Positions 8,001-61,998 of a stretch of 61,998 nt of DNA are shown one piece after another (the first letter of the stretch is position 1; each line of letters begins with the position of its first letter). The translations under genes and the position numbers were made by a program. The notes beneath the pieces are model-generated. The model had not been told where the DNA came from. It was given only the letters and a program-made list of their open reading frames with translations, and ran no database searches. Location of the stretch: positions 1 to 61,998 of the IMG/VR virus record IMGVR_UViG_3300033233_000039; one strand, written 5' to 3'. This stretch comes from a virus.

Positions 8001-9911
8001 AGTAGAAACTTAACAGGATCAGAATCATTAGATATATTTTGTTCATCATCAGGTGGAGGAGCAGCGTTTATATTAGGATCGGTTACTTCTTCAACTGATA
8101 TAACAACATGGAAAAGAGTGTCACCAGCTATTGTTAGTGCTTTTCCTTTTGCTGGAAATGTTTCATTTGGTGTATCCGTAGGCGGTGCTTTACTATCTCC
8201 AATAACCATTTATATGAGTGAAGAGCAATGGGAAGATGTAACAGGTATAACAAATCAGAATCCAAGTGAGTATGTAACTTTTAACACAACTCAATATTTT
8301 CCATATCAGAATCCAATGTCTGTAGATGGAAACGGTGTTGTAACTGACTCTGGTGTTAGAACTATGTTAACTGCTGGTAAAGGGCAAGTATCTGAATCTT
8401 CAGGTATCAATGTTTGTACTTGTTATAGTACTCCAGGCGCAGATCAGTTGGGTACACTAATCAATTCTGGTAGCACAGTTGTTGGTAAGGTATACAAGAT
8501 AGCAAGTAGAACTTCAGTTGATTTCACTCTTGCTGGTGCAGCAAACAATAATGTTGGAACGCAGTACACCTGTACGCTTGCTCAAACGATGACTGCCAAC
8601 GATACCGTTAATGAAGTAGGTGGAACTAACTCTATTACGGGTGCATTCGTTTCTGGTTTAGGTACTGGTGCTAAATCCAACAATGTAACAGGGTTAGTTG
8701 TACCTGGATTTGTGTTATTCTCAAATAATGTCACTCTAACGGTTGTTGATGATACTGCTGCTTTAGCTAGTTCCCCACTTTCAGGATTTTCAGGAACAAA
8801 ATGCTATGAAGCTACTTCAGTTGGCGGTGATGGAGGAGTTCTTATACCTGGGGTATTTGCTACAGGTGTTGGCTCTATTTCAATATATGCTAGAGCCGTT
8901 TCAGGACCATCTACATCAGGGTTGACTTTAAGTAATGGAGCCGGTTCAAAGATTATAACATCAAGCTCATATGCAAGAATTAGTTCTGAAAATTTAACGA
9001 CCACTGCTGGTCAAACATCTGAACTATGGGTAACGAGTGGGTCAACTATTAGATTCTGTTGTCCACAAACTGAACAATCAGCTACATCTACTTCAATAAT
9101 GCCAACAAATGGAGCAACAGGAAGCAGAAGTGCAACTAAATCAGTCTTGACAACTGCTGCTGTAATGCCAACATCTGGTAATAGAGTTATCTCTGTTAAA
9201 GTTACACCTAAGTTTGTAAATAGTACAGTAATGCAAAATTGGTTTGGATCATATAGTGATTCCAACAACTACGTTTGTGGCTGGTATAATAACCAAGGAG
9301 TGTATGTTCAAAAAACTGTAGCAGGTGTTAATGAGTTTGCTTGTTGGTATGGAACATTAGTTGTTGGAACAACATATACATTTACTGCTGTTATTCTTCC
9401 AGATAATACTGTGATGGTTATGGTTGATAGTGTTGGTGGTTTGACAGGAATAGGCTCCAATGTTGCCGTTGATCCCGGTTTTGATAGTGATCCAAGTTGG
9501 TTGAAAGATGATGGTACTTGGGTAGTTGGTTCTAGTGTTGGTACAGGAACTTTATCATCCACTTCACTTTATCAAACCAATGGATCAATTACAACCGGCA
9601 AGGTATATCAATTAGATATTGATGTATTAACTAGAACAGCGGGTACACTACTATTAACAATAGGTGGAACTTCTTGCATTTCCGCATCTAGTACTACTGG
9701 TCATAAGACTGGTTCTAATATCGCGGCAATAAATCAAAATATGAACGTGATAGGGGCGGGTTTCTCAGGAACTGTTGATAACTTCACTTGTTGTTTAGTT
9801 AACAATAACACAACAACACTAGCTCCTGTGTTTGGAACAACAATAGAAATAGGTAGTATGAACTCAACAAACGTAGCAAATGCAAATATTAAACTCTTGG
9901 AGATTGGATAA
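5097..9911 (+). CDS. Giant tail protein with an internal duplication (putative receptor-binding protein)
   Basis: This 1604-aa beta-rich protein (Gly, Ser, Thr and Val rich) has no membrane segment. It consists of two homologous halves, residues about 1-845 and 846-1604. Both begin FTRASRYFGLD / YTRNSLYFGLD followed by PGMRAVTNLCT / DGMRSVTNKCT. Both contain NLCTCYSTPGADQLGT, EVGGTNSVTGAFVSGLGTG, and IPTNGATASRSATK. The last phrase and the YFGLD box resemble large phage tail proteins that carry carbohydrate-binding or LamG-like modules. It starts 3 nt after the previous stop in the fibre operon. The surface role is inferred. The antisense strand is unusually open because of base composition and is not coding. 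Confidence 0.75.
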   Translation: MMTPGLLRNNNSTFWPSDYNLNQRAGTNPILFTRASRYFGLDGFGKLIETSSGSSAYPGMRAVTNLCTNSNPSYTAGGSTPPTVTNGVVYLGKVCTKIDFPSGSGGYSISRANSSYIWTGILGRSYRHSLSIVMGRALTSGEAMVSYHTGANGLFQIFETFTNHSTSWRRRSYPTADICVVSGPNFSSICISNLNAPLTVYVCEIQVQDVTGIDDGVPSEYVATTSESVTQFFPYANPMSLNSYTATDSGVRTMLAGNNGFISEPSATNLCTCYSTPGADQLGTELVTNGTFSSDTGWTHNSGWTLGGTVAAVNVATNTPLYQGLATTIGKVYRITYTISGYSSGSAIPFIGGTQTGTTRSGNGTYTEDIVSNTASSTCGITTPVSTTSVFSIDDFSIKEVGGTNSVTGAFVSGLGTGCKAVTGNLVIPGINVISGDAAAFLTIVADLTAVTTMGDNSIMPSGKVYKFDNSAGSTVAYFDLTGVINTTNAGIVSLVARASAGSGYFKTDYDGGNTAISSSAYSRLSRVPSLTNTQSRVRMVANANSVIYFYMPQFEDLAMTVPTSYIPTNGATASRSATKYYTPTLRNLAYAGYRVIDLNWTPLAVVVGTEVCLWSSYTDASNYIKISNNGVITFFEKRVAGVSEFVTIDHVPVSGTTALVTGIIYPNNTLGLFVNGVSANAGLGSELITVAADRDFSSDTGYWTKSTGTTITAGVCRLTSVATSLSAISKTTLKTVNLCYQSSAIISGYVAGSIYMCNGTYPFSANGTYTRSNITTVSTENYSTSGTTTLDIDDVSLKQIFNNSTTTPVVLGSTIEIGSFNAGNVTYGQFKNIRMTSDTFGRNNWPLGYSGVSSTGAPTPVYTRNSLYFGLDENSKMGVTSSNSPSYDGMRSVTNKCTSFEGLNWTAAGSTPPTVDSNSISYLGKNSVKVTFPTNSGGWAISRISLPTPIATAIVGRTYRLTKSLVFSRNLTGSESLDIFCSSSGGGAAFILGSVTSSTDITTWKRVSPAIVSAFPFAGNVSFGVSVGGALLSPITIYMSEEQWEDVTGITNQNPSEYVTFNTTQYFPYQNPMSVDGNGVVTDSGVRTMLTAGKGQVSESSGINVCTCYSTPGADQLGTLINSGSTVVGKVYKIASRTSVDFTLAGAANNNVGTQYTCTLAQTMTANDTVNEVGGTNSITGAFVSGLGTGAKSNNVTGLVVPGFVLFSNNVTLTVVDDTAALASSPLSGFSGTKCYEATSVGGDGGVLIPGVFATGVGSISIYARAVSGPSTSGLTLSNGAGSKIITSSSYARISSENLTTTAGQTSELWVTSGSTIRFCCPQTEQSATSTSIMPTNGATGSRSATKSVLTTAAVMPTSGNRVISVKVTPKFVNSTVMQNWFGSYSDSNNYVCGWYNNQGVYVQKTVAGVNEFACWYGTLVVGTTYTFTAVILPDNTVMVMVDSVGGLTGIGSNVAVDPGFDSDPSWLKDDGTWVVGSSVGTGTLSSTSLYQTNGSITTGKVYQLDIDVLTRTAGTLLLTIGGTSCISASSTTGHKTGSNIAAINQNMNVIGAGFSGTVDNFTCCLVNNNTTTLAPVFGTTIEIGSMNSTNVANANIKLLEIG

Positions 9912-9913
9912 TT

Positions 9914-10258
9914 ATGAAACTACACGCAAAGCTTAAAACACCGGTAATAGACAACGATTGGTCAGTTCCTCTTAGAAATGCTGCATTGGAACTACAAGTT
10001 CTTAACACTTATTCCGGTGGGAACTCAGAACTTGATGTTAATGGGAATCCAAAATTCCCAAGACCAATTACATGTAACCCTGATTCAACTGATATTAATG
10101 GGTTTATTGGTGAGATGAATGGACTACCAGATGCTGATGGTTATGTTGAGGTCGTTGTTGGTAACTATGAATACATTGATCTTGACTTCTTACCAGCACA
10201 ACCAACTACTTTCTCATTGGTACTTGGTTATCATCCAACTGCTGGAAAGATTATATGA
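9914..10258 (+). CDS. Small protein of the fibre operon, unknown
   Basis: I do not recognise this 114-aa protein. It starts 3 nt after the giant tail protein and overlaps the next start by 4 nt (ATGA), so it is co-translated with the fibre genes. The sequence is beta-rich and soluble, with conserved-looking NGFIGEMNGLPDADGYVEV and a C-terminal LVLGYHPTAGKII. Position suggests a fibre cap, tip or chaperone-like accessory protein. That is inference only. Confidence 0.6.
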   Translation: MKLHAKLKTPVIDNDWSVPLRNAALELQVLNTYSGGNSELDVNGNPKFPRPITCNPDSTDINGFIGEMNGLPDADGYVEVVVGNYEYIDLDFLPAQPTTFSLVLGYHPTAGKII

Positions 10259-10551
10259 TTGTCAGGATTTGTGTACTTTTATCACTTTTGATAATGTTAG
10301 CTACAAATTCTCTCGCTTTTGCCCTAGATAAGAACAAACATATAATTGCAGGAGCTATTATAGGAGTATCATTTACTTCTTTTTCTAATCCAAAAGTAGG
10401 ATCATTGGCTTCATGCTCTGCTGGTTTGGGTAAAGAAATTTATGACGCCACAGGAAGAGGTACACCTGATGTTAATGACTTTGCATTCACTTGTGCTTCT
10501 GGTGTGTTATCATCATATATACTTTATTACATAAAAGAGAAAATAAAATGA
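10255..10551 (+). CDS. Small exported protein, YfiM/DUF2279-like
   Basis: The 98-aa product has a clear N-terminal signal or membrane segment (IVRICVLLSLLIMLATNSLA). After it comes DKNKHIIAGAIIGV, and a second hydrophobic stretch lies near the C-terminus. The DKxxHxxAGxxxG start of the mature region and GKEIYDATGRGTPDxxDF resemble the YfiM/DUF2279 group of small periplasmic or lipoprotein-like phage and bacterial proteins. No lipobox is obvious. It overlaps both neighbours by 4 nt. It is probably periplasmic or inner-membrane and may belong with lysis or superinfection functions. Confidence 0.6.
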   Translation: MIVRICVLLSLLIMLATNSLAFALDKNKHIIAGAIIGVSFTSFSNPKVGSLASCSAGLGKEIYDATGRGTPDVNDFAFTCASGVLSSYILYYIKEKIK

Positions 10552-12573: not shown

Positions 12574-13458
12574 TTAAAACCAAACATCCATGTTTTTTGA
12601 CATAGTGAGAATACTTTCTCTGTTTTGTGGCTCTAATAACATAGATACCTTACCAACAAAAAACTTTTCGGTTTGTTTATGGTAGTCGTGTTGAATGCCT
12701 TCTTTGGTAAATTCTTCAGGCCACTCATAGAATCCTATGTTGTTGACTCCAAATCTATTTCTCTTAACATATATAAGCTTTAGCTTTTCGCCTTCTTTGA
12801 TATGCTCATACTTGTTATAGATACCAAATTCTCTCAATAGGTATTCATAATTAAAAGCTCCTTTGACATTATATGGAGTTCCTTTTACACAAGTATTATT
12901 AACAATATACTTGGTTAGGTTTCTAACACCGATATTAACGCTCAAATCTTCGATATTAGCGTGTTTCTGACTCTCTTTATAGTCTTCCACCACTTTCTTA
13001 ATATCTTCGTCTGAAGAGCCTTTTAGGATCATTTCAAGTACATGTGTTAATGCTGGTTTAAAAATGGTTGGTGTCTCTGATCGAATCATTTCTAAACCAG
13101 TAACATCAATCTTATCCTCTTTCTTTCCTTCCTTATTAACTAAATGATATCCGTACTTCTTCTTAGCAACAAACAACGCAGTCTTACAAACAATCTCTTG
13201 TTTGAAGTTAATAGAGAAATCAGTAACTGTTGAGTTATATGTTCCTAATTGAGTTATGGTTAAAGCATTGCTATCAACATGGTTCTCTAAACACTTGGAT
13301 ATTCTTAATACTATATCCACTTGTTTGTCTAAAGGCAAGCTTAACCATTTATCCTTTGGGATACCATGTGCTAAAATAAAGTCCTCTACATTGACGAACA
13401 AGCTATCAGTGTCAACTCCTTCAAATGTAGGTGATATGGTCAATATAACCATCATCAC
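12574..13458 (-). CDS. 43: DNA polymerase (gp43-like), C-terminal fragment with motif C, thumb and clamp-binding tail
   Basis: The 294-aa product carries family B polymerase motif C (GVDTDSLFVNV, residues about 14-24). The palm and thumb regions follow (GLEMIRSETPTIFKP, KGTPYNVKGAFNYEYLL, KLKLIYVKRNRFGVNNIGFYEW), and the gene ends NMDVWF, a likely clamp-binding tail like that of T4 gp43. The N-terminal half is a separate gene at 18064-19809. The first residues here (MMMVILTISPTF) do not look like polymerase. A +1 frame change at ATT TGA (13422-13427) would join this frame to an SD-preceded ATG at 13483, giving GYIDHITYIEGVDTDSLF, a far better motif C strand. The true start is therefore uncertain. 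The two parts presumably assemble non-covalently. Confidence 0.85.
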   Translation of the reverse strand: MMMVILTISPTFEGVDTDSLFVNVEDFILAHGIPKDKWLSLPLDKQVDIVLRISKCLENHVDSNALTITQLGTYNSTVTDFSINFKQEIVCKTALFVAKKKYGYHLVNKEGKKEDKIDVTGLEMIRSETPTIFKPALTHVLEMILKGSSDEDIKKVVEDYKESQKHANIEDLSVNIGVRNLTKYIVNNTCVKGTPYNVKGAFNYEYLLREFGIYNKYEHIKEGEKLKLIYVKRNRFGVNNIGFYEWPEEFTKEGIQHDYHKQTEKFFVGKVSMLLEPQNRESILTMSKNMDVWF

Positions 13459-14292: not shown

Positions 14293-15249
14293 ATGAACCA
14301 ATATCATCAAACTATAATAGACTATGGATATAATAAGTATGTTAAGTGGTATTTGTCAATATGTAAACGCTCTCAATTGAAATTTACTACAAGAAAAGAG
14401 GCTGTCTTATATTATGGATACACGGAGGAACACCATATTTTACCAAAAAGCTTGTGCTCTGATGATATACAAAAGAACGATAAGAGCAATAGAGTATATC
14501 TTTCCGCAAGAGAACACTTTATATGTCACTGGCTTCTCACTAAGATAACACATAGTCAATCAATGTTTAGGGCTTTTTGGGGTTTAACATCACAGCACTC
14601 ATCAAATCATAAAAGATATAAAGTTTGCTCTAAGGTGTATGAACTATCAAAGAAGGCATATTCAAAATCAATTTCTGGTGATAATCATTGGATGAAATCT
14701 GAAAAATCTCGCAAAAATGCTTCTATTGCTGCCAAAAAGAGAATATTAAACATGACAGAAGAGCAAAAAAAGAACAAACGTATTGCACTGTCTATGTCAA
14801 TTAAAGGACGAATTTTATCTCCAGAACACAAAGATAGAATTGGGAAGGCAAATAAAAATAAAAAAAGGTCTTCGGAGATGAACATGCGACAAAGCATGCG
14901 ACAAAAAGAGTATGTCATTACTCATGGTTGGAAATCACCCACTCTAGGTGTTGTCAGAGATAAGCAACCATGCCATATATGCGGAACTCTTGTTGATGTC
15001 GCTAATATGAATAAATGGCATGGAGATAAATGCAGATTTATTCATATTAGCGAAGATATATTAAAAATTATATTTAAGAGTCCGTTAAAAAATTCTCCGA
15101 TGGTTAATAACAAGAATCGTCTTACTCCATTCGGAAACATGATACGTGATATCACAGGATACTCAGAAATTGATGATATTAAAAAAATAGTTATAATACA
15201 TCAAGATTACATTCGTCTTGTAGATAGTCAGTTGCTAGATTACCAATGA
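14293..15249 (+). CDS. HNH homing endonuclease with NUMOD3 repeats
   Basis: This is a 318-aa free-standing homing endonuclease. The HNH core is near residues 48-85 (EEHHILPKSL ... NRVYLSAREHFICHWLL). DNA-binding NUMOD3-like repeats follow (GDNHWMKSEKSRKNASIAA; GRILSPEHKDRIGKANKNK). Near residue 230 there is a zinc-like pair CHICG ... C. It has its own late promoter and the SD AAGGGG, opposite in strand to its neighbours. Its 3' end overlaps the end of the RNA ligase gene by 59 nt on the other strand. It lies between the two polymerase fragments and is likely a selfish element; the target site is unknown. Confidence 0.85.
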   Translation: MNQYHQTIIDYGYNKYVKWYLSICKRSQLKFTTRKEAVLYYGYTEEHHILPKSLCSDDIQKNDKSNRVYLSAREHFICHWLLTKITHSQSMFRAFWGLTSQHSSNHKRYKVCSKVYELSKKAYSKSISGDNHWMKSEKSRKNASIAAKKRILNMTEEQKKNKRIALSMSIKGRILSPEHKDRIGKANKNKKRSSEMNMRQSMRQKEYVITHGWKSPTLGVVRDKQPCHICGTLVDVANMNKWHGDKCRFIHISEDILKIIFKSPLKNSPMVNNKNRLTPFGNMIRDITGYSEIDDIKKIVIIHQDYIRLVDSQLLDYQ

Positions 15250-16751: not shown

Positions 16752-16784
16752 AACCCAATTACCATTTGCCGTGGTAATTGGGTT
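16752..16784 (+). promoter_or_regulatory. 13-bp perfect hairpin in the leader of the HNH gene
   Basis: AACCCAATTACCA (16752-16764) pairs with TGGTAATTGGGTT (16772-16784) around TTTGCCG. No T-run follows on the plus strand, so it is unlikely to be a terminator in that direction. It lies between the late promoter and the SD and may set mRNA stability or translation. Confidence 0.6.
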
Positions 16785-16819
16785 CTAACCTAAACATTTA
16801 CTTTGAAGGAGTAAACATC

Positions 16820-18067
16820 ATGGCTGATCCTATTTATACCAAAAAATGCTCTAAATGCAATGAAATTAAACCTATTGGAGATTTTAAACAACGAAGCGAT
16901 AGAGTCGGAAAATATACACCACAGTGCATAACATGTATCAACAAGGAAAATAGGGAAAAATATAAAAATAGTATAAAAATAAGAGAGAAGTTACAAATAG
17001 CATCAAAAGAGTATTATACTCATAATAGAGAAAAATGTAAGATAGATCGACAATTATATAGAAAATCAACACCATCATACTTAACATATTCGCGTCAGCT
17101 AACTATTGATGAAGATTCAAGATTATCTGATGATGGTATATCACTGGAAGTCAAATGCAAATATTGCCGGGAGTACTTTAGTCCTACTAATAGCCAGGTA
17201 AATAATAGAATTCTTAGCATAAATGGTAAATCTGGCGGTGAGAATAATGTATATTGTTCTGTTGATTGTAAGAAAAGTTGCGAAACATACAGACAGCGAA
17301 AGAATATTAAGAAATCAAAAGAAAATACATCTCCACCAATATCGTTTACCGAAAAAAAATGTAGTAAGTGTGGAGAGATTAAGCCTATTAGTGACTTTAG
17401 AAAGAGAAAAGAACGAAGACTTGGATATCAATCACACTGTAATGAATGTGTTAAACAAAGACAAAAATCAAGGTATCCAATCGTTAAAGATAAACTAAAT
17501 GAAGATAGAAGACAATATAGAATTAACAATCCCACATATACAAAATTAAAGAATGAAAAAATTATAAAAGCTTTTGCTATATATGATACATATAAAAATC
17601 AACTAACCATAGAGGAAGAACCTACATTATCAGCAGATAGTGTATTCCTAGAATGTAGATGTAAATATTGTGGTGATTATTTTATCCCTACTAGTAGAAG
17701 TGTTATAAGACGAGTGCAGTCTATTAAGGGCATTAAGGAAGGTGATAACAATCTATATTGCTCTGATAATTGTAAAAAATCGTGCGGAACATATAATCAG
17801 AAATTTTTTCCTAAAAATTTCAAAGTAAATACCTCAAGAGAGGTACAACCTCAACTAAGAAAGATGGTTCTAGCCTTAGACAACTACACTTGTCAGATAT
17901 GTGGCAATACAAAAGAAGATGCCCAATTGCATTGCCATCATACTGAAGGTGTTGAGATTAACCCTATAGAATCTGCTGATATTGATAAGTGTATTACATT
18001 ATGTAAAAAGTGTCATAATAAAACTCATAAAAACTGCGATATGAAAAGAAAGAAGTGTAAAGTTTAA
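16820..18067 (+). CDS. HNH homing endonuclease with duplicated zinc modules
   Basis: Start at ATG 16820 after GAAGGAG, giving 415 aa. A two-part unit occurs twice, near residues 5-130 and 175-330. Each unit has KKCSKCxEIKPIxDFKxR...C..C followed by CKYC...Y-C-S-x-x-C-K-K-S-C, which are likely zinc-bound DNA-recognition modules. The C-terminal HNH domain (residues about 350-405) reads CQICGNTKEDAQLHCHHTEG ... CITLCKKCHNKTH, the classical CxxC-HNH-CxxC form. The gene runs opposite to the polymerase, and its last 4 nt overlap the end of the polymerase N-fragment, so it sits exactly at the break. Confidence 0.85.
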   Translation: MADPIYTKKCSKCNEIKPIGDFKQRSDRVGKYTPQCITCINKENREKYKNSIKIREKLQIASKEYYTHNREKCKIDRQLYRKSTPSYLTYSRQLTIDEDSRLSDDGISLEVKCKYCREYFSPTNSQVNNRILSINGKSGGENNVYCSVDCKKSCETYRQRKNIKKSKENTSPPISFTEKKCSKCGEIKPISDFRKRKERRLGYQSHCNECVKQRQKSRYPIVKDKLNEDRRQYRINNPTYTKLKNEKIIKAFAIYDTYKNQLTIEEEPTLSADSVFLECRCKYCGDYFIPTSRSVIRRVQSIKGIKEGDNNLYCSDNCKKSCGTYNQKFFPKNFKVNTSREVQPQLRKMVLALDNYTCQICGNTKEDAQLHCHHTEGVEINPIESADIDKCITLCKKCHNKTHKNCDMKRKKCKV

Positions 18068-19809
18068 TATTCTATTATTTCCCGTAGTATATTTAGTAAT
18101 TCATCGCTAGGGTTGTTTAGAAGCTCATTCGCGTACCTTTGTCCATCAAGGATGGTCTGTCTTCCGGTACTAGTTATAGCTTCTGCTGCATGTTTATTGA
18201 AGTATCTTGAGTATGGTACGCCCATGACACCGTACACAGAATTTAATAATATCTTCAATGCCCACTGCAAATCATGTTTTTGTTTAGCCTTTTCAAGCAG
18301 GTCTTTCTTTTCTTTACCCTTTAACTTATCAGCTTCTTTATATAGTCTTTTCTTCTCACCATTTTGAAACTTTCTTTTTTCAAATACTAACTTCTCAACA
18401 ATAGCGATAACACCTTTAGGTGAATTCTTAAACATGCTACCACAAGGAGCAACACAAAACAACTTCTTTTTCAAACTTTGGTTAATTGCATCTAACTGAG
18501 CACCTTCAATAAAAACAATGGTTCTTAGATCATCGTTCTTCATGAAATAGAATGGTGGGAATTCCTTGGTTTGCATATATTCAACGATGATCTTATAGAA
18601 CGGTCTATCATCATTATCCTTATCATGAACCCCTTTTTCGGTCCTATAATCAGTTATATGCTTCTCACTGAATCCAATGATCCTCCCAAAGTATGTCTCT
18701 GGAGATATGTTAAGTGTTATAATAGCAGTGGGGTATGAGCTTGTTATATCAATATCTATTACCCAATTATACAATCCTTTCTTTGGCTCTTTAACGAATG
18801 CAGCAGGATACCACTCCTGACTACCACCAACCAATCTTGGAGCACATAAATTATTTCTTCTGTAATATGTCAACATCAAGCCTTCAATAAGAGCTGTTGT
18901 TGAGTTATACATTGCCATAGGTACTTTACAAAGTAATGCAAGTGATTGAATTAGCGCAAAATAACCACATTTTTTGTCGATATTTTGAACTAATTGAGCG
19001 TCACGGAAATTATATTCACAATATAGTTGCCAATTTTGCTTATATAGGTTTCGTAGATTTCCATATTCGCCATAGTCAATCTTACCACCAAGACCCTCTA
19101 ACTGAGCAACGTAATCAAGCTTGCCACTTTCAAGGTTATTAGTTGAATACCATTTGTATATTGCTTTATAGTCAAGAATGGTTACTCCTGCTATATAGAT
19201 TTGTTGAATGCCATCCTTAGTGAACCAAGTACTTGCTTGTTTACTAGGTGAAAGTAATTTCCATAATTTAGTATCATCACCAAATAGCTTCTTAGTTCTG
19301 TTGATGATATATGGTAAGTCGAACCCACCTCTTGTGTTAGATTTCTTATCGTCACAGTAAAACCATCCTGTTGATATATCACATGGATTCTTATGCTTCC
19401 AATTGAAATATTGGGTAAGTAAATCTCTTTCATTATCACAATGATGATATGTGAGATTCTTTATTCCAGTATCATTAGTATAAGCATGTAATCCAAAAGA
19501 CTGAATTCCTTTGTTATGTGCTATGGTGATAATAGTAATTGGATGATCTGCTTTATCTGGACTCGGAAAGACCTCCGAATATACTTCAATATCGTCAAAA
19601 TGACATTCCAACTTAGGAACAGACATTTCTTCATCTGGTATTTGGTGGTATCTTTCAGTTAGAAATTGAACAGTTGGAAGAACTTCATTTTCCAGACAAT
19701 CTTTATTCTTATCAAGAAAGGTTCTATATTGTTGATAATTTTCAAACTCTCTCCTACCAACATAATCACCATAAATTGATTTTGTTTTGGTTGGTGTTGG
19801 TGATTTCAT
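18064..19809 (-). CDS. 43: DNA polymerase (gp43-like), N-terminal fragment with exonuclease, motif A and motif B
   Basis: The 581-aa product contains the 3'-5' exonuclease (Exo I FDDIEV with Asp73/Glu75; Exo II GFDLPYIINR; Exo III FRDAQL), palm motif A (DIDITSSYPTAI), and fingers motif B (ALKILLNSVYGVMG). It stops at ILREIIEY, just before the strand leading to motif C, which is in the separate gene at 12574-13458. The reading frame stays polymerase-like upstream of ATG 19809, back to about 19917 (EITLWETIKGERF...NWVPYVYM). There the only SD (GGAGGAG, 19930-19924) and a good promoter lie, but no ATG, GTG or TTG. Initiation at a non-standard codon (ATC at 19917) is suspected. The HNH gene converges on the 3' end. 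Confidence 0.9.
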   Translation of the reverse strand: MKSPTPTKTKSIYGDYVGRREFENYQQYRTFLDKNKDCLENEVLPTVQFLTERYHQIPDEEMSVPKLECHFDDIEVYSEVFPSPDKADHPITIITIAHNKGIQSFGLHAYTNDTGIKNLTYHHCDNERDLLTQYFNWKHKNPCDISTGWFYCDDKKSNTRGGFDLPYIINRTKKLFGDDTKLWKLLSPSKQASTWFTKDGIQQIYIAGVTILDYKAIYKWYSTNNLESGKLDYVAQLEGLGGKIDYGEYGNLRNLYKQNWQLYCEYNFRDAQLVQNIDKKCGYFALIQSLALLCKVPMAMYNSTTALIEGLMLTYYRRNNLCAPRLVGGSQEWYPAAFVKEPKKGLYNWVIDIDITSSYPTAIITLNISPETYFGRIIGFSEKHITDYRTEKGVHDKDNDDRPFYKIIVEYMQTKEFPPFYFMKNDDLRTIVFIEGAQLDAINQSLKKKLFCVAPCGSMFKNSPKGVIAIVEKLVFEKRKFQNGEKKRLYKEADKLKGKEKKDLLEKAKQKHDLQWALKILLNSVYGVMGVPYSRYFNKHAAEAITSTGRQTILDGQRYANELLNNPSDELLNILREIIEY

Positions 19810-22801: not shown

Positions 22802-23086
22802 ATGAATAAACTAGATTTGATCAAAAAAATCAGCGACAACCTGATCATGGAAGAAAAAGATGTCACTGATGTTTTGAATGAGCTAATATTAATAATGAAT
22901 GAGTCTTTTGTCAACCATGAGAAAATTGTGTTGACAGGTCTTGGATCATTTAATATAGTTGAAAGAGCATCTAGGGTAGCTATGAATCCACAAACAAGGG
23001 AACCCATAGCCATACCCAATAAACTAGTTGTTAAATTTATACCTAGCACCAGCATTATCATAAAACTTAATAAGGAGAGTAAATGA
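22802..23086 (+). CDS. HU/IHF-family DNA-binding protein
   Basis: The 94-aa product is the usual HU size. It has an N-terminal dimerisation helix pair (KLDLIKKISDNL ... VTDVLNELI), then the characteristic GLGSFNIVERASRVAMNPQT and the beta-arm region ending AIPNKLVVKFIPS. The PQTREPI segment is the DNA-clasping arm. It bends or compacts phage DNA, possibly at the replication origin or during head filling. Its stop overlaps the clamp-loader ATG by 4 nt. Confidence 0.9.
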   Translation: MNKLDLIKKISDNLIMEEKDVTDVLNELILIMNESFVNHEKIVLTGLGSFNIVERASRVAMNPQTREPIAIPNKLVVKFIPSTSIIIKLNKESK

Positions 23087-23682
23087 GTACGACAAAAATG
23101 GAATTCGTTCATCAACCAAAAACCATCGATGAAATGGTATTACATACTGATGTTAAAGTTAGGCTAGTAAAAGCTTTGGAAGACATTCCTAATATTATGT
23201 TGATAGGTTCTCCTGGTGTTGGTAAGGGTACTTGGGTTGATATTCTTAGGAAAACATATCCTGATTCCGCTTGTATGAAGCTTAATGGGTCTGATGAACG
23301 AGGTATTGATATCTTCCGCAATCGAATCAAACCCTTCTGTTCAACACCGTCATTGGATGGTTCACTCAACATCATGTATATCAATGAGTGTTTGGAAGAA
23401 CATGAGGAAATTAGATTGAGCAATGGAGAATTTATTAAGTTGTGTGATATTGATGGTGAAGTCTCTATTTTAAGCTTTAATATGGAAACAAGCGAAATTG
23501 AGAAGGATACTGCTGTTGTTATAAAAAAATCAATTGATGATGTATATGAAGTCGAATTGGATGATGGAAGAAAGATCAAGTGCAATGATAATCATCCTTT
23601 TTTAGTACGAGAGGCTAATGGTATCATCATAGAGAGAAAATTAAAAGACCTTGCGGTTGGGGATGATATAGTGACTATCTAA
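23083..23682 (+). CDS. 44: Clamp loader large subunit (gp44) N-extein plus N-half of a split intein
   Basis: Residues 1-102 are the N-terminal AAA+ part of gp44 with Walker A GSPGVGKGT (42-50), running to the Walker B strand (LNIMYINE). At Cys103 (nt 23389) an intein begins: block A CLEEHEEIRLSNG, then VYEVELDDGRKIKCNDNHPF (block B, T/N-x-x-H type), ending KDLAVGDDIVTI and TAA. The matching C-half is in the gene at 23941. Trans-splicing of the two products would give a 304-aa gp44, near T4's 319. Walker B reads INECD where T4 has IDEFD, so the metal-binding Asp position is Asn. Confidence 0.9.
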   Translation: MSTTKMEFVHQPKTIDEMVLHTDVKVRLVKALEDIPNIMLIGSPGVGKGTWVDILRKTYPDSACMKLNGSDERGIDIFRNRIKPFCSTPSLDGSLNIMYINECLEEHEEIRLSNGEFIKLCDIDGEVSILSFNMETSEIEKDTAVVIKKSIDDVYEVELDDGRKIKCNDNHPFLVREANGIIIERKLKDLAVGDDIVTI

Positions 23683-23940: not shown

Positions 23941-24654
23941 ATGAAAATATCTAAGATTGAATATGTAGGGAAGGCGGCTGTTATTAATTTAACTGTTAAA
24001 AAAAATCACACTTTCATAACTAGAAATGGAATACCTACTCATAATTGCGATTCTGTAACTCCTGATACTCAATTGGCTATTCGAGACTTCATGGAGTCAG
24101 TTAAGGATATCACACGTTTTGTGTTTTGTGCCAACTATGGGTACAAACTTATCCCAGAACTGAAATCAAGATGTCGTGTTATTGAGATGGTTAATCCTCC
24201 TGCTAAAGATATATACTTTTGCCTTAAAACCATTCTTAAAAAAGAAGGGGTTAAACATAAGGATGCTTCTATAATCGAGATAGTTAAGAAATGCTATCCT
24301 GATATCAGACAGTCTATCATTTCTCTTCAGGAGAATATTAATGATGGGGTATTGGCTGAGAATGTCATCGTTACCACCAATGATGATATCAACAAGCTAG
24401 TATTTGATGCTATGTTGACTCAAGACCCTGATAATGTTAGAAAGGTGCTTAGAAGTCATCCTATCGATTATACGTCACTGTACAAATATTTGTACACATT
24501 AATCATGGATGCTGCGGGTAATGATGTATTCAAGAAAGATGCTAGTGCTATTATGCTTATAGGTGAGCATTTACATCGAAATGTGACTTCAGGCATACCA
24601 GAAATCAATTTCCTACACTTCTATGTAACACTTCTTATAAAGGATGTCATTTAA
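23941..24654 (+). CDS. 44: C-half of split intein plus clamp loader (gp44) C-extein
   Basis: Residues 1-35 are a C-intein (MKISKIEYVGKAAVINLTV, block F region, then NHTFITRNGIPTHN, block G ending His-Asn). Cys36 (nt 24046) is the +1 nucleophile. The C-extein follows: CDSVTPDTQLAIRDFMESV, FCANYGYKLIPELKSRCRVI (sensor 1 and Arg finger SRC), PDIRQSIISLQ (sensor 2 like T4 NFPDFRKTI), then the helical collar domain. With the N-half it forms the ATPase that opens gp45 clamps. The SD AAGGTAAGGAA precedes the ATG. Confidence 0.9.
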   Translation: MKISKIEYVGKAAVINLTVKKNHTFITRNGIPTHNCDSVTPDTQLAIRDFMESVKDITRFVFCANYGYKLIPELKSRCRVIEMVNPPAKDIYFCLKTILKKEGVKHKDASIIEIVKKCYPDIRQSIISLQENINDGVLAENVIVTTNDDINKLVFDAMLTQDPDNVRKVLRSHPIDYTSLYKYLYTLIMDAAGNDVFKKDASAIMLIGEHLHRNVTSGIPEINFLHFYVTLLIKDVI

Positions 24655-55971: not shown

Positions 55972-57003
55972 ATGAGTATTGACTTTAACAAGATACATAA
56001 CTTTCTCTCAGAGTATTGTGAGAGAGTTAAAGTCAAGTCAAGTGGTAGAGGATTTCTTGGTAGATGCCCTGTTTGCGGCGACTCCAAGAAATCCTCTAAT
56101 ACCATGAGGCTTCATGTCGATTACTATTCTCAATATGATGATTATATTGCATACTGTTGGAATGGCGGGTGTGAAGTCAAAGGAACAACCATTACATCAT
56201 TGATGTCAATGGTTAAGGGTATCTCATATACTCAAGCAAAGAAAGAACTTAATGAAGAGGTCTTTGATCCTAAGAAGATTAAGGATAGACTTAATAACAA
56301 GAAGAATATAATCGAAGAAGAGAAAGTTACTAAGATACTTGATCTTGATATAGAAAAGGATTGTCTATCTATATCATCTACACCAGAATCAACAATAAAC
56401 AAGAGATTTCATAAAGCATTGGTTGATTTCGTTAGGGATAGAAAGATACCTATTGATTGTTATGTTGCTGTCTCTGGACGATATAAAGGAAGAGTGATCA
56501 TTCCTATTACTATTAACAATGAATTGGTGTATTTCCAAGGAAGAGCTATATCGGATGAAATGACTCCCAAATACCTGAATCCTGACGTAGAGAAAAGTAA
56601 TATCATTCTCAATATTGATAAGTTTGATCCTGATAAGTCTATCATTGTTACTGAAGGCCCGATTGATAGCTACATGATAGAAAACAACCAAGGAACCAAT
56701 GCATTAGGATCAAACATATCTGATGATCTTCTTGAGGTGTTATTTGATAGCACAGAGAGGGATATAGTTCTAGCGTATGATAATCCTAATATAGATGAAG
56801 CAGGTAAGAAGTGTATTATGAAGATGATTGAGAAAGGCAAGTATGGAAAACGTGTGAAGTACTTCCTGATGCCTTATAACGACATTAAAGATTTGAATGA
56901 GTTGGTAGTAAAGAAGAACATCGATAATGTATATGATTTTGTTCTTAAGCATTCTCACTCGTATCTATATGTAACTACCAAATTTAAATTAGGCTTAAAA
57001 TGA
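55972..57003 (+). CDS. 61: DNA primase (gp61-like)
   Basis: The 343-aa product is close to T4 gp61 (342). Zinc-binding domain at residues 28-72: GRCPVCGDSKKSS ... CWNGGCEVKG. The TOPRIM/RNAP core follows: VSGRYKGRVIIPITINNELV (DnaG motif), IVTEGPIDSYMIE (Glu of TOPRIM) and IVLAYDNPNIDEAG (D-x-D-like). It makes RNA primers and binds the gp41 helicase (20440). It is the only core replication gene in this region, lying among small accessory genes. Confidence 0.9.
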   Translation: MSIDFNKIHNFLSEYCERVKVKSSGRGFLGRCPVCGDSKKSSNTMRLHVDYYSQYDDYIAYCWNGGCEVKGTTITSLMSMVKGISYTQAKKELNEEVFDPKKIKDRLNNKKNIIEEEKVTKILDLDIEKDCLSISSTPESTINKRFHKALVDFVRDRKIPIDCYVAVSGRYKGRVIIPITINNELVYFQGRAISDEMTPKYLNPDVEKSNIILNIDKFDPDKSIIVTEGPIDSYMIENNQGTNALGSNISDDLLEVLFDSTERDIVLAYDNPNIDEAGKKCIMKMIEKGKYGKRVKYFLMPYNDIKDLNELVVKKNIDNVYDFVLKHSHSYLYVTTKFKLGLK

Positions 57004-57046: not shown

Positions 57047-57511
57047 ATGAAGATAACAAAAGTAGGTCAAGATATTATCAGTGTGAATGATAGCGATGTT
57101 GATAATATTGCGACACCAAATAAGATACATTTAGTTCATATTAAATTCTCAGAGCCAACCATTTCAAAAATGGATTGGTTACTAAAGACCTTCAAGTTCA
57201 CCAATCGCTTTATTGTTTCTGATAGCATTTCATTCTATAATAACTACTTCAAGAATACCAGACATAAATATTATGTATTGAATACTGTCGATGACAGTAT
57301 CATTTCTTTCTATAAGCGTAACAACAAAGTTACTCTAAATACAACATTACTAAAAGATATTGATAAATTATTCATCTTTACCAATATCGATGATGTGTTA
57401 AAAAACACTGAAGTAGTAATAGCTTATAGGTCAGATTATGTAAACAACCTAGACTCATTTATGAGATGGGATGGAAATCTTATTATCATCGAAGAGGGTT
57501 GTGAATATTAA
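57047..57511 (+). CDS. Protein of the late sugar-type operon, unknown
   Basis: The 154-aa product starts MKITKVGQDIISVNDSDVDN and has an alpha/beta pattern (KIHLVHIKFSEPTISKMDWL; VIAYRSDYVNNLDSFMRW). No family was recognised. It ends in the ATG of the GT-B-like gene (1-nt overlap), so they likely act together. Confidence 0.55.
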   Translation: MKITKVGQDIISVNDSDVDNIATPNKIHLVHIKFSEPTISKMDWLLKTFKFTNRFIVSDSISFYNNYFKNTRHKYYVLNTVDDSIISFYKRNNKVTLNTTLLKDIDKLFIFTNIDDVLKNTEVVIAYRSDYVNNLDSFMRWDGNLIIIEEGCEY

Positions 57512-58329
57512 TGACAACAACATTAGTCGGACCATATATAGGATCATTCGAGCATGAACTGATATCCAATATTCCATATGCTAGATATCTATCAGATATT
57601 TTTGATGGCGAAGTTTATGTAAGTGGGTACTCCAATAGAATGTTTATGTATGATTGGTTGATTGATGATAGAAAAATACCTGTTAATGAAATGTGGGCTA
57701 GAAATGATGAAGGACAAGTTGGTTATATAAACTCTGATGTTTCTCTACTTCAGTATCAGCAAGAGTCAAAGAGAATCAAACAACATGTGTTAGATAAGAC
57801 AAGACTTCAACCGAAAGATATAGATACATATAGTCTTACCTACCAACGTGGAAATCAATCATATTCAATCAATCAAAGAACGTATCAGAAAATAAACAAT
57901 ATTCGACTTATACCAAAGCTAAAAGAAAGTGTTATATTCATCCCCGATAATTCACTATCAGAAGAAGATAGTTTGAATATCTATAATTCACTAATACCTT
58001 ACTACAACGTATTAGTGATTGGAGATTGTAAAACTAGGTTAAATGATACGAATATATTAATGCATAGGCTTGACTATGTTGACAAGGTATATGAAATGAT
58101 ATATTCATATATAGAGTCAGTTAAGTTTGTTGTGACTCCTTGTTCCTATTGGACCATTCTATGCAACATGCAACAAGTTCCTGTTGTTAGCTGGGGAAAG
58201 AACATAGGCATCTATAAATCAAATGGTATATTTGGTTTTGATAATAAAAACCTGATTATATCTAGTCCTAAAACTATAAATAGTGATGTACTATTGAAGT
58301 CGATAGAATACTTTCAATCTAAACTGTGA
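57511..58329 (+). CDS. GT-B-like (glycosyltransferase-type) protein
   Basis: The 272-aa product has an N-terminal Rossmann-like half (TLVGPYIGSFEHELISNIPY). The C-terminal half has the order VIFIPDNSLSEEDSLNIYNS, YNVLVIGDCKTRLN, VKFVVTPCSYWTILCNMQQV and PVVSWGKNIG. The last block resembles the nucleotide-sugar or heptose-transferase end (safe-site T/S, loop, PVxxxWG) of GT-B/GT9-like folds. Acceptor unknown; only the fold is suggested. It is co-transcribed with the unknown gene before it. Confidence 0.5.
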   Translation: MTTTLVGPYIGSFEHELISNIPYARYLSDIFDGEVYVSGYSNRMFMYDWLIDDRKIPVNEMWARNDEGQVGYINSDVSLLQYQQESKRIKQHVLDKTRLQPKDIDTYSLTYQRGNQSYSINQRTYQKINNIRLIPKLKESVIFIPDNSLSEEDSLNIYNSLIPYYNVLVIGDCKTRLNDTNILMHRLDYVDKVYEMIYSYIESVKFVVTPCSYWTILCNMQQVPVVSWGKNIGIYKSNGIFGFDNKNLIISSPKTINSDVLLKSIEYFQSKL

Positions 58330-58336
58330 GGATAAA

Positions 58337-58531
58337 ATGCCCCTATATGAGTATCAATGCTCAGTGTGTAATTGTATTAAAGAAGAGTTTACAAATGACA
58401 GAGAACAGAAAACAAGTATCTGTGAAGAATGTGGACACGTATCAATAAAGATTATGAGCACCTTCGGGTGGGATATTAAAGGTGGTGGAGCATATAGAAC
58501 TGGCCCACCTGCTCCTATTAAGGAAAAATGA
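58337..58531 (+). CDS. FmdB-like zinc-ribbon protein
   Basis: The 64-aa product starts MPLYEYQCSVCNCIKEEF and has ICEECGHVSIKIMSTFG, the FmdB-type CxxC/CxxC ribbon with PLYEYxC at the N-terminus. A TATAAATA (58275-58282) lies in the previous gene. A putative nucleic-acid or protein-binding regulator of unknown target. Confidence 0.75.
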   Translation: MPLYEYQCSVCNCIKEEFTNDREQKTSICEECGHVSIKIMSTFGWDIKGGGAYRTGPPAPIKEK

Positions 58532-58532
58532 A

Positions 58533-58682
58533 ATGATTACATTATACTCTATTATTTGTATATTAATGTTAATATACTTTGTTGGTAATGACTTTAATAT
58601 ATCAATTAATAGATATTTAATGGCTCATCTACTAGCGTTCACCGTATTATACACAATAGCTGTAAAACTATTTAATGGTTGA
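58533..58682 (+). CDS. Small membrane protein
   Basis: Start at ATG 58533 (the upstream frame is in the previous gene). 49 aa with two hydrophobic helices (MITLYSIICILMLIYFVGND; AHLLAFTVLYTIAVKLF). Function unknown. Confidence 0.5.
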   Translation: MITLYSIICILMLIYFVGNDFNISINRYLMAHLLAFTVLYTIAVKLFNG

Positions 58683-58684
58683 TT

Positions 58685-58828
58685 ATGTTGAAAACAAACT
58701 GTAAGTATTTTGACAATGGGAATTGTAGCATTAAACCAAAATTCTTTTTTGGCCTTTTTAAAGAATCCTGTTGTCATCCTGATTATAATGGAATACAATG
58801 TCATTTACAGTCGAGAAAAAGAAAATGA
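58685..58828 (+). CDS. 47-aa Cys-rich protein
   Basis: ATG 58685 two bases after the previous stop. The product MLKTNCKYFDNGNCSIKPKF has CCHPDYNGIQCHLQSRKRK at the C-terminus; five Cys, likely zinc. Its TGA overlaps the next ATG (ATGA). Confidence 0.5.
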   Translation: MLKTNCKYFDNGNCSIKPKFFFGLFKESCCHPDYNGIQCHLQSRKRK

Positions 58829-59334
58829 ATAAATTTAGTGATTATATAAAGGAGGCGACAATTGCTGGTGGTACTCCTGGTGGTTATTATGCCATTCAAA
58901 GTGATGATGACTTACCTGTGGGTAATATCATAACAGGTGAAAAATATACTAGAGAGATGGTTAAGAATCGTCTTACTGGTGAATATCCTAACTATCGGGT
59001 AGATAGTAGTGATTGGAGTTGGGATGATTTTAAAGACTCCAAGGGTATGCATTCACATAAAAGATACTCACAAACTCTTGATTCTTTAATGGGGAAAAAT
59101 TCTCCTATTAAAAGACCTGACTTTGATTTATGGAAGCATATTAAAAAACGCCCTGCTAGTCATGACCTTGAGACAAGTAAAGAAAAACTAATGCGACCAG
59201 AGCAAGATGCGCTTACTGGTAATGATAAAGTTGTTGTTCCTGATAACCCTAAAACTGGACAGGATGATGGTGATGGTGTTCTAAAAACTGTTAATAAACA
59301 TATTATAAAATCTGTTGAAAAATCTAGGAGATAA
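58825..59334 (+). CDS. Capsid-targeting-like protein, unknown
   Basis: Start at ATG 58825 gives MNKFSDYIKEATIAGGTPGG (169 aa): amphipathic start with I-K-E and small residues after it, an excellent cleavage-like site. The body is polar and basic, with low complexity (SHKRYSQTLDSLMGKN; KTGQDDGDGVLKTVNK). It may be an internal head protein. SD AAAAAGAAA is weak; coupling by ATGA is likely. Confidence 0.6.
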   Translation: MNKFSDYIKEATIAGGTPGGYYAIQSDDDLPVGNIITGEKYTREMVKNRLTGEYPNYRVDSSDWSWDDFKDSKGMHSHKRYSQTLDSLMGKNSPIKRPDFDLWKHIKKRPASHDLETSKEKLMRPEQDALTGNDKVVVPDNPKTGQDDGDGVLKTVNKHIIKSVEKSRR

Positions 59335-59337
59335 ATT

Positions 59338-59610
59338 TTGCCAATTTTCGATCTTTTGTGTAAAGCATGTGAACATGAAGAAATTGATGTAATTAAGAAA
59401 GCTGATGAGGAAGTTCTTTGTCCTCGGTGTGGTGATCCAATGGTTCATATATGTAATAAGATGACATTCAAATTAAGTTATAATAACCAAACCGACTCAT
59501 GTGGCTGGAGTAATGATGGATATGCCTCTAGCCAATACTGGAATGACTATAAGAAACAAAAGTCAGAAGGAAAGAATGTTAGGATTCCTAGCTTAGACGG
59601 CGATAAGTAG
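59338..59610 (+). CDS. Zinc-ribbon protein, FmdB-like
   Basis: TTG start at 59338 after GGAG. The 90-aa product starts MPIFDLLCKACEHEEIDVIK and has LCPRCGDPMVHICNKM; FmdB-like ribbon at the N-terminus, polar tail (SSQYWNDYKKQKSEGKN). It is a distant relative of the gene at 58337. Confidence 0.65.
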   Translation: MPIFDLLCKACEHEEIDVIKKADEEVLCPRCGDPMVHICNKMTFKLSYNNQTDSCGWSNDGYASSQYWNDYKKQKSEGKNVRIPSLDGDK

Positions 59611-59617
59611 TAATATC

Positions 59618-59674
59618 CCTTTATGCGACAAATAGAGTGTTTTAGTGGCGCAATAGTCCTTTATGCGACAAATA
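59618..59674 (+). repeat. Two 17-bp direct repeats, 40 bp apart, before the epimerase gene
   Basis: CCTTTATGCGACAAATA occurs at 59618-59634 and 59658-59674. The second copy is 15 nt before ATG 59690, with GAGG between. They may be operator sites or a duplicated promoter segment. Confidence 0.7.
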
Positions 59675-59689
59675 AACTGTGAGGTAAAG

Positions 59690-61998
59690 ATGTCAGGTAA
59701 AAATATATTAGTAATTGGACATGCTGGTTATATTGGTAATGCCCTAACTCAAAAATTATTAATGTCTGGATATAGCGTATCTGGTGTTGATAACTTCTCA
59801 TGTGAACAATATCTCTCTGATATAAATTCAATATCAGCACTTCCCGAACTTAATCGATATAACAAACTCAAAAGATTTAATATGTTGGGGCGGTTCAAAG
59901 AATATGATATTGATGTGGTGTATAACTACTCCGATATCTATTATCTATTAAGGCATCAAAAATTTGATACCATTGTTAATCTAGGTCATATCCCATCTGC
60001 GCCTTACTCTATGCAGAATGTAATGAAATCCAATGAAGTACTTACAAACAATGTAATCGGAACCAATATATTGTTGTGGGGTATTAAGGATATTTGTCCT
60101 AATACTCACTATCTCACTGTTGGCTCAACTGGCGAGTATTCCCATAACCTGAATGTAGATATAGAAGAGGGTAATTTTACATTCGAGCATAAAGGTAGGA
60201 CATCAACAGAGTGTTTGTTTCCAAGAAAGGCTAATTCTATTTATCATGCATCTAAAATTTCATCAACTTATATGATCGATTATCTGTCTAAGATGTGGAA
60301 CCTCAAATGTAGTGATTTGATGCAAGCAGTTGTCTTTGGATCATATACAGATGAACTTGATGAAACAGAAATATATTCCAGACTCTCTAGCGATGAATGC
60401 TTTATTGGGAGGACTGATGTAATGACACCAAGTGGATATAAACAAATTAGAGATATAACAAAAGGGGATTTGGTTTATACTCATTTGGGGAATATAAAAA
60501 CGGTTAATAAAACGATGAAACGCCAATATAGAGGAATTGGATATAAAATATCACTCCCGTATGGGATAGAGTTCACATCAACAGAAAATCATCCATTCTA
60601 TGTGTATATCAGACAAAACTATAAAAATAATAAATTAGATAACATTAATTGGGTATCTGCTAATGACATATATGAAACAAGTGTACTGCCAAAATATCCA
60701 GATAATAAAGATACATTTGATGCGTATGATACTGTAATATCCAAACATAAAGAAGGAATACCATATTATATTATATCAAAAGAAACTGGAGTATCATATA
60801 ATTGTGTTAGAAGATGGTCTAACGGAGCAAAACCAAGAAAAATAATAAGAACAAATACTACCACCAATAATGATATTTTTTTTACGATCCCGCGATTGAA
60901 ATATATTACTAATGATTTGGTAATTAATGTGTATAGTGAAATTGATTACGGTATCATTAAAAATAATAAAGTATATTGCTGTAATTCTATGAGTGATAAC
61001 CATATACACGATGGATCGAAGGGAATTCCAAATATCATATCCGTGGATGGGGATTTTTGTAGATTGGCTGGATATTATCTTGCAGAGGGGAGTATATCAG
61101 AATATCAAATTAATTTTGCCTTCGATAAAAACGAAACAGTATTTATTGAGGATGTTCGACGCATTTTACTGGAAAAATTTAATGTCATAACAACAGTATA
61201 TGAGAGTAAAGGCAGTGATGGTGTGAACATACTAGGTAGTTCTAAAATATTATGTATGTTATTTATTAAGTTATTTGGAAAAGGATGTCGAGAAAAATTT
61301 ATCAGGGAAGATTTTATGAATCTTCCAGATAATACGATAAACGAACTCATTAACGGGTATTGGAGGGGGGATGGATGCGGAAGAACAGAAAGAAATATAT
61401 GCAATATTTCTTCAGTATCTAGTAGTATTTTAAAACAGATACAGTATCTATTATTAAGACAAGGAATTATATCTGCTGTTAGATTTAGAGAAAGAACACA
61501 AACCATGTCTTTCAAAGGAAGAGAAAAATATAGTCTCGATACAAATACATTTGATTTGTATGTTACTGGCGAAGCATGTAGACGTTTTTTTGAAAAAGTT
61601 TGTGGATTAGAACCCAATAATAAAAAACATAAAAGTGATAGAATATATTCAAATGATGAATATATTTTCATTCCCTTGAAAAAAATAGAGAAGGTTAATA
61701 TTGATGAATATGTTTATAATATGGAAATAGAAGATGATGAGTCGTATCTAGTACCAATATCGGCACATAATTGTTACGGAACTGCGATCAATAGATTCAT
61801 CGTTCAGGCTTGTATTGGCGAACCACTAACCATTTATGGTGATGGAAAACATCAAAGAGGTTTCATATCTCTTAATGACTCCATCCAAGCGTTGATGTTA
61901 GCTATTGAAAATCCTGCCGAAGAAGGTATTGTTCAAACTTGGAATCAACTATCTGAATGGCATAGCATTAACGATATTGCCAAGATGGTTGTTGATGT
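59690..61998 (+). CDS. SQD1-like NAD-dependent epimerase/UDP-sulfoquinovose synthase with intein (3' truncated)
   Basis: The reading frame is open to the window end. N-extein residues 1-236: Rossmann GHAGYIGNAL, FDTIVNLGHIPSAPYSMQN, VGSTGEY, and YHASKISSTYM (the YxxxK of extended SDRs). After the intein: CYGTAINRFIVQACIGEPLT, DGKHQRGFISLNDSIQALML and TWNQLSEWHSINDIA. This block matches the FGTxxNRFCVQAxxGxPLT ... FNQFTEQFSVxELA pattern of SQD1-type UDP-sulfoquinovose synthases more than plain GalE. A phage sulfosugar enzyme would modify a cell-surface or virion glycan; the exact substrate needs testing. The intein splits the conserved Cys region. Confidence 0.8.
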   Translation, partial: MSGKNILVIGHAGYIGNALTQKLLMSGYSVSGVDNFSCEQYLSDINSISALPELNRYNKLKRFNMLGRFKEYDIDVVYNYSDIYYLLRHQKFDTIVNLGHIPSAPYSMQNVMKSNEVLTNNVIGTNILLWGIKDICPNTHYLTVGSTGEYSHNLNVDIEEGNFTFEHKGRTSTECLFPRKANSIYHASKISSTYMIDYLSKMWNLKCSDLMQAVVFGSYTDELDETEIYSRLSSDECFIGRTDVMTPSGYKQIRDITKGDLVYTHLGNIKTVNKTMKRQYRGIGYKISLPYGIEFTSTENHPFYVYIRQNYKNNKLDNINWVSANDIYETSVLPKYPDNKDTFDAYDTVISKHKEGIPYYIISKETGVSYNCVRRWSNGAKPRKIIRTNTTTNNDIFFTIPRLKYITNDLVINVYSEIDYGIIKNNKVYCCNSMSDNHIHDGSKGIPNIISVDGDFCRLAGYYLAEGSISEYQINFAFDKNETVFIEDVRRILLEKFNVITTVYESKGSDGVNILGSSKILCMLFIKLFGKGCREKFIREDFMNLPDNTINELINGYWRGDGCGRTERNICNISSVSSSILKQIQYLLLRQGIISAVRFRERTQTMSFKGREKYSLDTNTFDLYVTGEACRRFFEKVCGLEPNNKKHKSDRIYSNDEYIFIPLKKIEKVNIDEYVYNMEIEDDESYLVPISAHNCYGTAINRFIVQACIGEPLTIYGDGKHQRGFISLNDSIQALMLAIENPAEEGIVQTWNQLSEWHSINDIAKMVVD
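60398..61771 (+). mobile_element. LAGLIDADG intein in the SQD1-like gene
   Basis: 458 in-frame codons. The N-terminus is Cys (CFIGRTDVMTPSGYKQI, block A) with FTSTENHPFYVY (block B). In the middle is a two-motif LAGLIDADG endonuclease (RLAGYYLAEGS and LINGYWRGDG). The C-terminal block is VYNMEIEDDESYLVPISAHN, ending His-Asn before Cys +1 (CYGTA). All splice residues and both endonuclease motifs are present, so it should be active for splicing and homing. Confidence 0.9.

Follow-up and report, generated by a model that had tools for sequence, protein, structure and literature searches.

A complete LAGLIDADG intein of 458 amino acids, recognised by its junctions, motifs and predicted fold, interrupts an SQD1-like gene at 60398..61771 (+) of the window, the 61,998-nucleotide stretch of viral DNA analysed here. 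For this intein, exact insertion, intact catalytic motifs, a predicted fold and empty alleles were established directly. We consider it very probable that it is an intact class-1 element that splices out and homes, in a nucleotide-sugar enzyme that makes something other than UDP-sulfoquinovose. The intein would be translated within the precursor of this SQD1-like SDR enzyme and would fold as a Hint domain with an inserted homing endonuclease. An N-S shift at Cys1, transfer to Cys+1 and cyclisation of Asn458 would join the exteins, DE to CYGT, and restore the enzyme. In a mixed infection the freed intein could then cut intein-free alleles of co-infecting phages, and repair of a cut allele would copy the intein in, completing homing.

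Position, motifs and predicted fold of the intein

The host ORF extends over 59663-61996 (+) as one frame of 778 codons that is open to the contig end. Its likeliest start is the ATG at 59690, which is preceded by TGAGGTAAAG; a direct repeat, CCTTTATGCGACAAATA, is present in two copies 40 bases apart at 59617-59680, at and just upstream of the gene start. The N-extein (59690..60397, +) was assigned as the Rossmann part of an SQD1-like SDR enzyme by its matches to NF041015 and to SQD1 in the PDB, and the C-extein (61772..61996, +) begins with CYGTAINRF, the first residue of which is the +1 Cys, and reaches 75 amino acids before it is cut by the contig end. Residues 246-703 of the ORF form the intein, 458 codons in frame; at this base composition, the chance of a stop-free frame of that length is ~4e-20. 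The sequence-only reading had proposed these coordinates and an insertion inside the NRF region, and it proved exact to the base, with the intein sitting just before CYGTAINRF. When the extein was aligned with Arabidopsis SQD1 (PDB 1i24; E 2.5e-50), both sides of the intein were matched and no residue was lost, query residues 245 and 704 pairing with chain residues 244 and 245. An assembly artefact, in which an intein of another gene was misjoined to the SQD1-like ORF, might be suspected from the location of the gene at the contig end and from the single such allele known, but the two junctions share a single codon boundary whose closure gives a perfect allele, the +1 Cys matches and the frame is continuous. 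We regard this explanation as extremely improbable.

All motifs that had been claimed for a complete LAGLIDADG intein were found. Cys1 opens the N-terminal CFIGRTDVMT, block B is TENH (residues 62-65), and the two LAGLIDADG motifs are LAGYYLAEG (223-231) and LINGYWRGDG (317-326), both of which keep their acidic residue (E230 and D325). Residues 439-452 read VYNMEIEDDESYLV, and the intein ends in SAHN (455-458, with His457-Asn458) followed by Cys+1. With the exact junctions, Cys1 and Cys+1 occupy the two positions at which class-1 inteins carry Cys, Ser or Thr, and TENH and SAHN correspond to the TxxH of block B and the C-terminal (His-)Asn of that class. The N-terminal part of the Hint splicing domain covers 60398..60697 (+; TENH at 60581-60592), as judged by motifs, model and structure matches, and motifs and model place its C-terminal part, with blocks F and G and SAHN, at 61652..61771 (+). 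The homing endonuclease domain lies at 61034..61612 (+; motifs at 61064-61090 and 61346-61375) and was delimited by its matches to LAGLIDADG_3 and I-DmoI. A linker stretch at 60773..60826 (+; ISKETGVSYNCVRRWSNG) is tentatively HTH-like, with a Pfam HTH_23 match below cut-off (E 0.036) and low model confidence.

The Pfam profile LAGLIDADG_3 (PF14528) matched the intein above its cut-off (1.3e-16). The splicing profiles remained under theirs (Intein_splicing at 27.8 bits, with a cut-off of 35.8, and TIGR01445 at 21.1 bits); the identity of the element is nonetheless settled because of the fold comparison and the empty sites. The base composition of the intein is only slightly lower than that of the host gene, and as a check for foreign origin its GC and GC3 are low, yet near the spread of the window.

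An AlphaFold2 model was built from a 12-sequence alignment of the intein and eleven viral relatives. Its mean pLDDT was 76. Values were mostly 77-97 for residues 1-100, apart from a single weak block at 71-80, and about 84-97 for most of the C-terminal Hint part; the linker at ~116-182 was mostly of low confidence. The top PDB matches of the model in Foldseek were the TliVMA, PI-PkoII and PI-SceI inteins (E 1e-18 to 4e-16). Alignment with VIA-align gave a Z of 29.4 over 326 residues for the TliVMA intein, a Z of about 18 at 2.2 A rmsd for the endonuclease domain against I-DmoI, and Z values of 16.5-17.5 for the splicing part against mini-inteins and Hedgehog/Hint domains. The model thus predicts the Hint fold of class-1 inteins, and the endonuclease combines two acidic motifs with a matching LAGLIDADG fold. 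The archaeal and yeast VMA and archaeal polymerase inteins (TliVMA, PI-SceI and PI-PkoII) share with the window intein a Hint domain into which a two-motif LAGLIDADG endonuclease is inserted, and a common fold over 326-340 residues. They differ from it in sequence (only 13-19% identity), in host gene and in its phage origin, and the long low-confidence linker (~116-182) is a feature of the window intein only. Taken as a protein-splicing element, it very likely splices.

Intein-free alleles and the prospects for homing

Searches with the intein or the N-extein as single sequences returned almost no relatives because such patterns reach close relatives only; alignments recovered them. The extein aligned with plasmid-borne homologues found 196 relatives among viral contigs, and an alignment of the phage clade found 176; the best 80 of the 196 and the best 80 of the 176 were kept. 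All 35 phage loci examined base by base (L090-L124, 38-57% identical) are uninterrupted at the junction; these include near-identical contigs, and the independent alleles number fewer than 35. The intein-free allele that the sequence-only reading had wanted sought in relatives therefore exists. Against uninterrupted alleles of the phage clade the N-extein is 44-53% identical, and the C-extein is 66-77% identical to L010-L012. Where the window reads SDE-intein-CYGTAINRF, L107 reads SDE-CFGTVLNRF, L095 reads TDQ-CFGTVLNRF and L101 reads FDE-AGGTVLNRF. The cellular homologues (best 80 loci) likewise cover the site in one piece. Only one intein-bearing allele is known, and no second intein was found among the SQD1-family alleles examined. 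INPHARED phages contained no close SQD1 relative, their matches being weak general epimerases.

The genomic surroundings are also shared. A DNA primase gene (55972..57003, +; phrog_47, 2.5e-42) marks the left end of a conserved order and precedes the SQD1-like gene in relatives as well. It is followed over 57047..59610 (+), in the same order in intein-free phages, by conserved neighbours: two genes without a family match (57047-57511 and 57511-58329, +) and zinc-ribbon genes (58337-58531 and 59338-59610, +). The succession of primase, 57047 gene, 57511 gene, zinc ribbon and SQD1-like gene is common to many phage relatives. From the uninterrupted alleles and this conserved order it follows that the SQD1-like gene is a standing phage gene and the intein an insertion.

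A tree places the window sequence within a phage clade that has good support. It diverges there earlier than L095, L107 and 16 members that form a subclade with Ala at +1. In the deeper branches the +1 residue is mostly Cys (L111, L113 and L114, with Thr in L115). Ala is confined to one derived subclade, in whose alleles we saw nothing suggestive of a remnant of an intein once present and then lost. Given this distribution, Cys+1 is probably ancestral in the phage clade and was not brought in with the intein. In two related phage loci (L013/L111 and L014/L115), the SQD1-like gene contains 5 and 7 in-frame TGA codons, several aligned to Trp; reading TGA as Trp suggests that these are recoded phages.

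The clean empty alleles, with Cys or Ala at +1, make homing testable. Cleavage of an empty allele by the window intein appears rather probable. A different reading holds that the intein splices but that its endonuclease is dead or lacks targets, so that the element would be an inherited passenger and not mobile. The single intein-bearing allele, the closest intein relatives at just 30-33% identity and the Ala+1 of most clade members, which may no longer fit the element, are in keeping with a passenger, whereas the acidic E230 and D325 retained in both LAGLIDADG motifs and the match of the endonuclease domain to I-DmoI at 2.2 A rmsd speak for an active enzyme. We judge a passenger possible but somewhat unlikely, and favour a mobile intein.

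Identity of the host enzyme

The assignment of the extein as SQD1-like was borne out, since NF041015 (UDP-sulfoquinovose synthase) was by far the best SDR family for the spliced fragment, at 287 bits against 46 for the next. The curated cut-off of 575 bits applies to full-length proteins, and the window gene is shortened by the contig end; homologues of other organisms, shortened to the same extent, likewise miss it (308-419 bits), so that a reduced score is compatible with membership. Arabidopsis SQD1, Sulfolobus Agl3 and bacterial SqdB belong to this best-scoring family, align continuously with the extein and have the Y-x-x-x-K, GEY and GT..NRF motifs in common with it. Unlike these enzymes, the extein is interrupted by an intein, belongs to a separate, well-supported phage clade and has replacements at H95, R101 and M145.

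These replacements go against the further claim that the enzyme functions like a UDP-sulfoquinovose synthase. Alanine at H95, R101, M145, Y182 or K186 abolishes the activity of Agl3 (PMC4388408), and the printed Agl3 primers place H95, R101 and M145 in AIVHFAE, AEQRSAP and MGTMGEY (PMC4388408). Their counterparts in the window enzyme are N, P and T (IVNLGHIPSAP and VGSTGEY). In the phage clade, N stands at position 95 in every one of 25 rows (some contigs contribute two), while position 101 varies between P, A and N and position 145 between T and A. Of 80 cellular relatives, 75 retain H95 and all 80 retain M145, but 59 have P at position 101. The SDR catalytic pair, Y182 and K186, is kept (SIYHASK).

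A true UDP-sulfoquinovose synthase would agree with the choice of family, with a score close to that of the equally truncated S. meliloti pSymB homologue (315 bits), with the strength of the PDB match to SQD1, with the retention of Y182, H183, K186, E147 and Y148 and with the two sulfotransferase genes near the L110 homologue. It would have to accommodate H95N, R101P and M145T, each at a position where alanine inactivates Agl3 (PMC4388408), and changes at all three positions throughout the phage clade, and we consider it improbable. Because three residues essential in Agl3 are replaced across the clade, synthesis of UDP-sulfoquinovose by these phages is unlikely; judged from its residues, the clade probably retains the SDR machinery and not this activity. 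A related nucleotide-sugar reaction for decoration of phage or host-surface glycans is likelier, a role to which the neighbouring genes in related phages point (glycosyltransferases, sulfotransferases, a methyltransferase and a GDP-mannose dehydratase-like gene). In the large phage SQD1-like clade the name that automatic annotation would likely give, UDP-sulfoquinovose synthase, is therefore probably wrong, and this doubt bears on claims about viral sulfur-metabolism genes (e.g., PMC7785012). In L110, a 223-kb phage contig, sulfotransferase genes at 6212-7021 and 9742-10401 flank the SQD1-like gene, and glycosyltransferases, a methyltransferase and a papain-like protease are also encoded in its flanks.

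Relatives of the intein and other elements in the window

The best full-length relatives of the intein are about 25-33% identical and all lie in other phage genes. Their hosts are ribonucleotide reductase (PTm1 and L261), DNA methylase (L260 and L256), terminase (L272), a portal-protein ORF (L248) and, in L252, a gene of glycosyltransferase-like type. The family to which the window intein belongs is old and wide. The inteins in the RNR-alpha genes of Tenacibaculum phage PTm1 and Enterococcus phage vB_Efa29212_3e and those of the IMG/VR loci L243, L252 and L256 have the same block order, an aligned identity of 27-31% to the window intein and a LAGLIDADG-type endonuclease in common with it; their host genes differ from that of the window. 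In PTm1 the RNR-alpha parts are annotated as separate ORFs, and the C-terminal part of the intein is absent from the first. The L252 gene appears to hold two inteins, and its joined flanks match Glycos_transf_1 at 2e-4, below the curated cut-off. The host of the L243 intein has a glycosyltransferase-like DxD stretch, but its identity was not confirmed by family or PDB search. Close downstream of the intein-free SQD1-like gene of L101, a different LAGLIDADG intein lies in a radical-SAM gene (L101:10209-12380). A shared origin with this element was considered and found unsupported, as the window intein had no match in the L101 locus at E 1e-3.

Among the papers on inteins examined, none describes one in an SQD1-family gene. 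The window intein is a known type of element in an apparently new host gene and at an apparently new site, with no new mechanism, and through it a nucleotide-sugar enzyme joins the few intein hosts that act outside nucleic-acid metabolism. An intein may also reside in the UDP-glucose dehydrogenase of Methanocaldococcus jannaschii. More than 60% of intein proteins act in replication, recombination or repair (PMC5784728), which upholds the view of a sugar enzyme as an unusual host, although inteins also occur in fungal chitin synthases (PMC5784728) and in the glycosyltransferase-like gene of L252; such hosts are uncommon but not unique. A broader and rather doubtful proposal has two parts that would both have to hold: the phage clade would be an SQD1-derived subfamily with a rebuilt active site for a different, perhaps undescribed, nucleotide sugar used in glycans, and a loose phage intein lineage would repeatedly home into carbohydrate-enzyme genes of this kind, the change from Cys to Ala at +1 closing the site in one subclade.

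Campylobacter phage IBB_35, another distant relative of T4, carries several inteins in other genes (PMC3322345). In the window, too, the intein is accompanied by other self-splicing or homing elements, as had been claimed: a split intein in gp44 and a polymerase gene whose broken parts are separated by endonuclease genes. The B-family DNA polymerase is encoded in two pieces, 18064-19809 (-) and 12574-13458 (-), which match profile positions 55-564 and 577-835 of 856. The pieces are separated by a gene for an RNA ligase and by two for endonucleases (14293-15249 and 16778-18067), and no intein sequence was evident at the broken ends. The clamp-loader gene gp44 is likewise in two pieces, at 23083-23682 and 23941-24654 (+), with a small ORF between them. 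A Hint-N part (CLEEHEEIRL...GDDIVTI) closes its N half and a Hint-C part (MKISKIEYV...GIPTHN, then CDSVT) opens its C half; from these sequences the break looks like a split intein.
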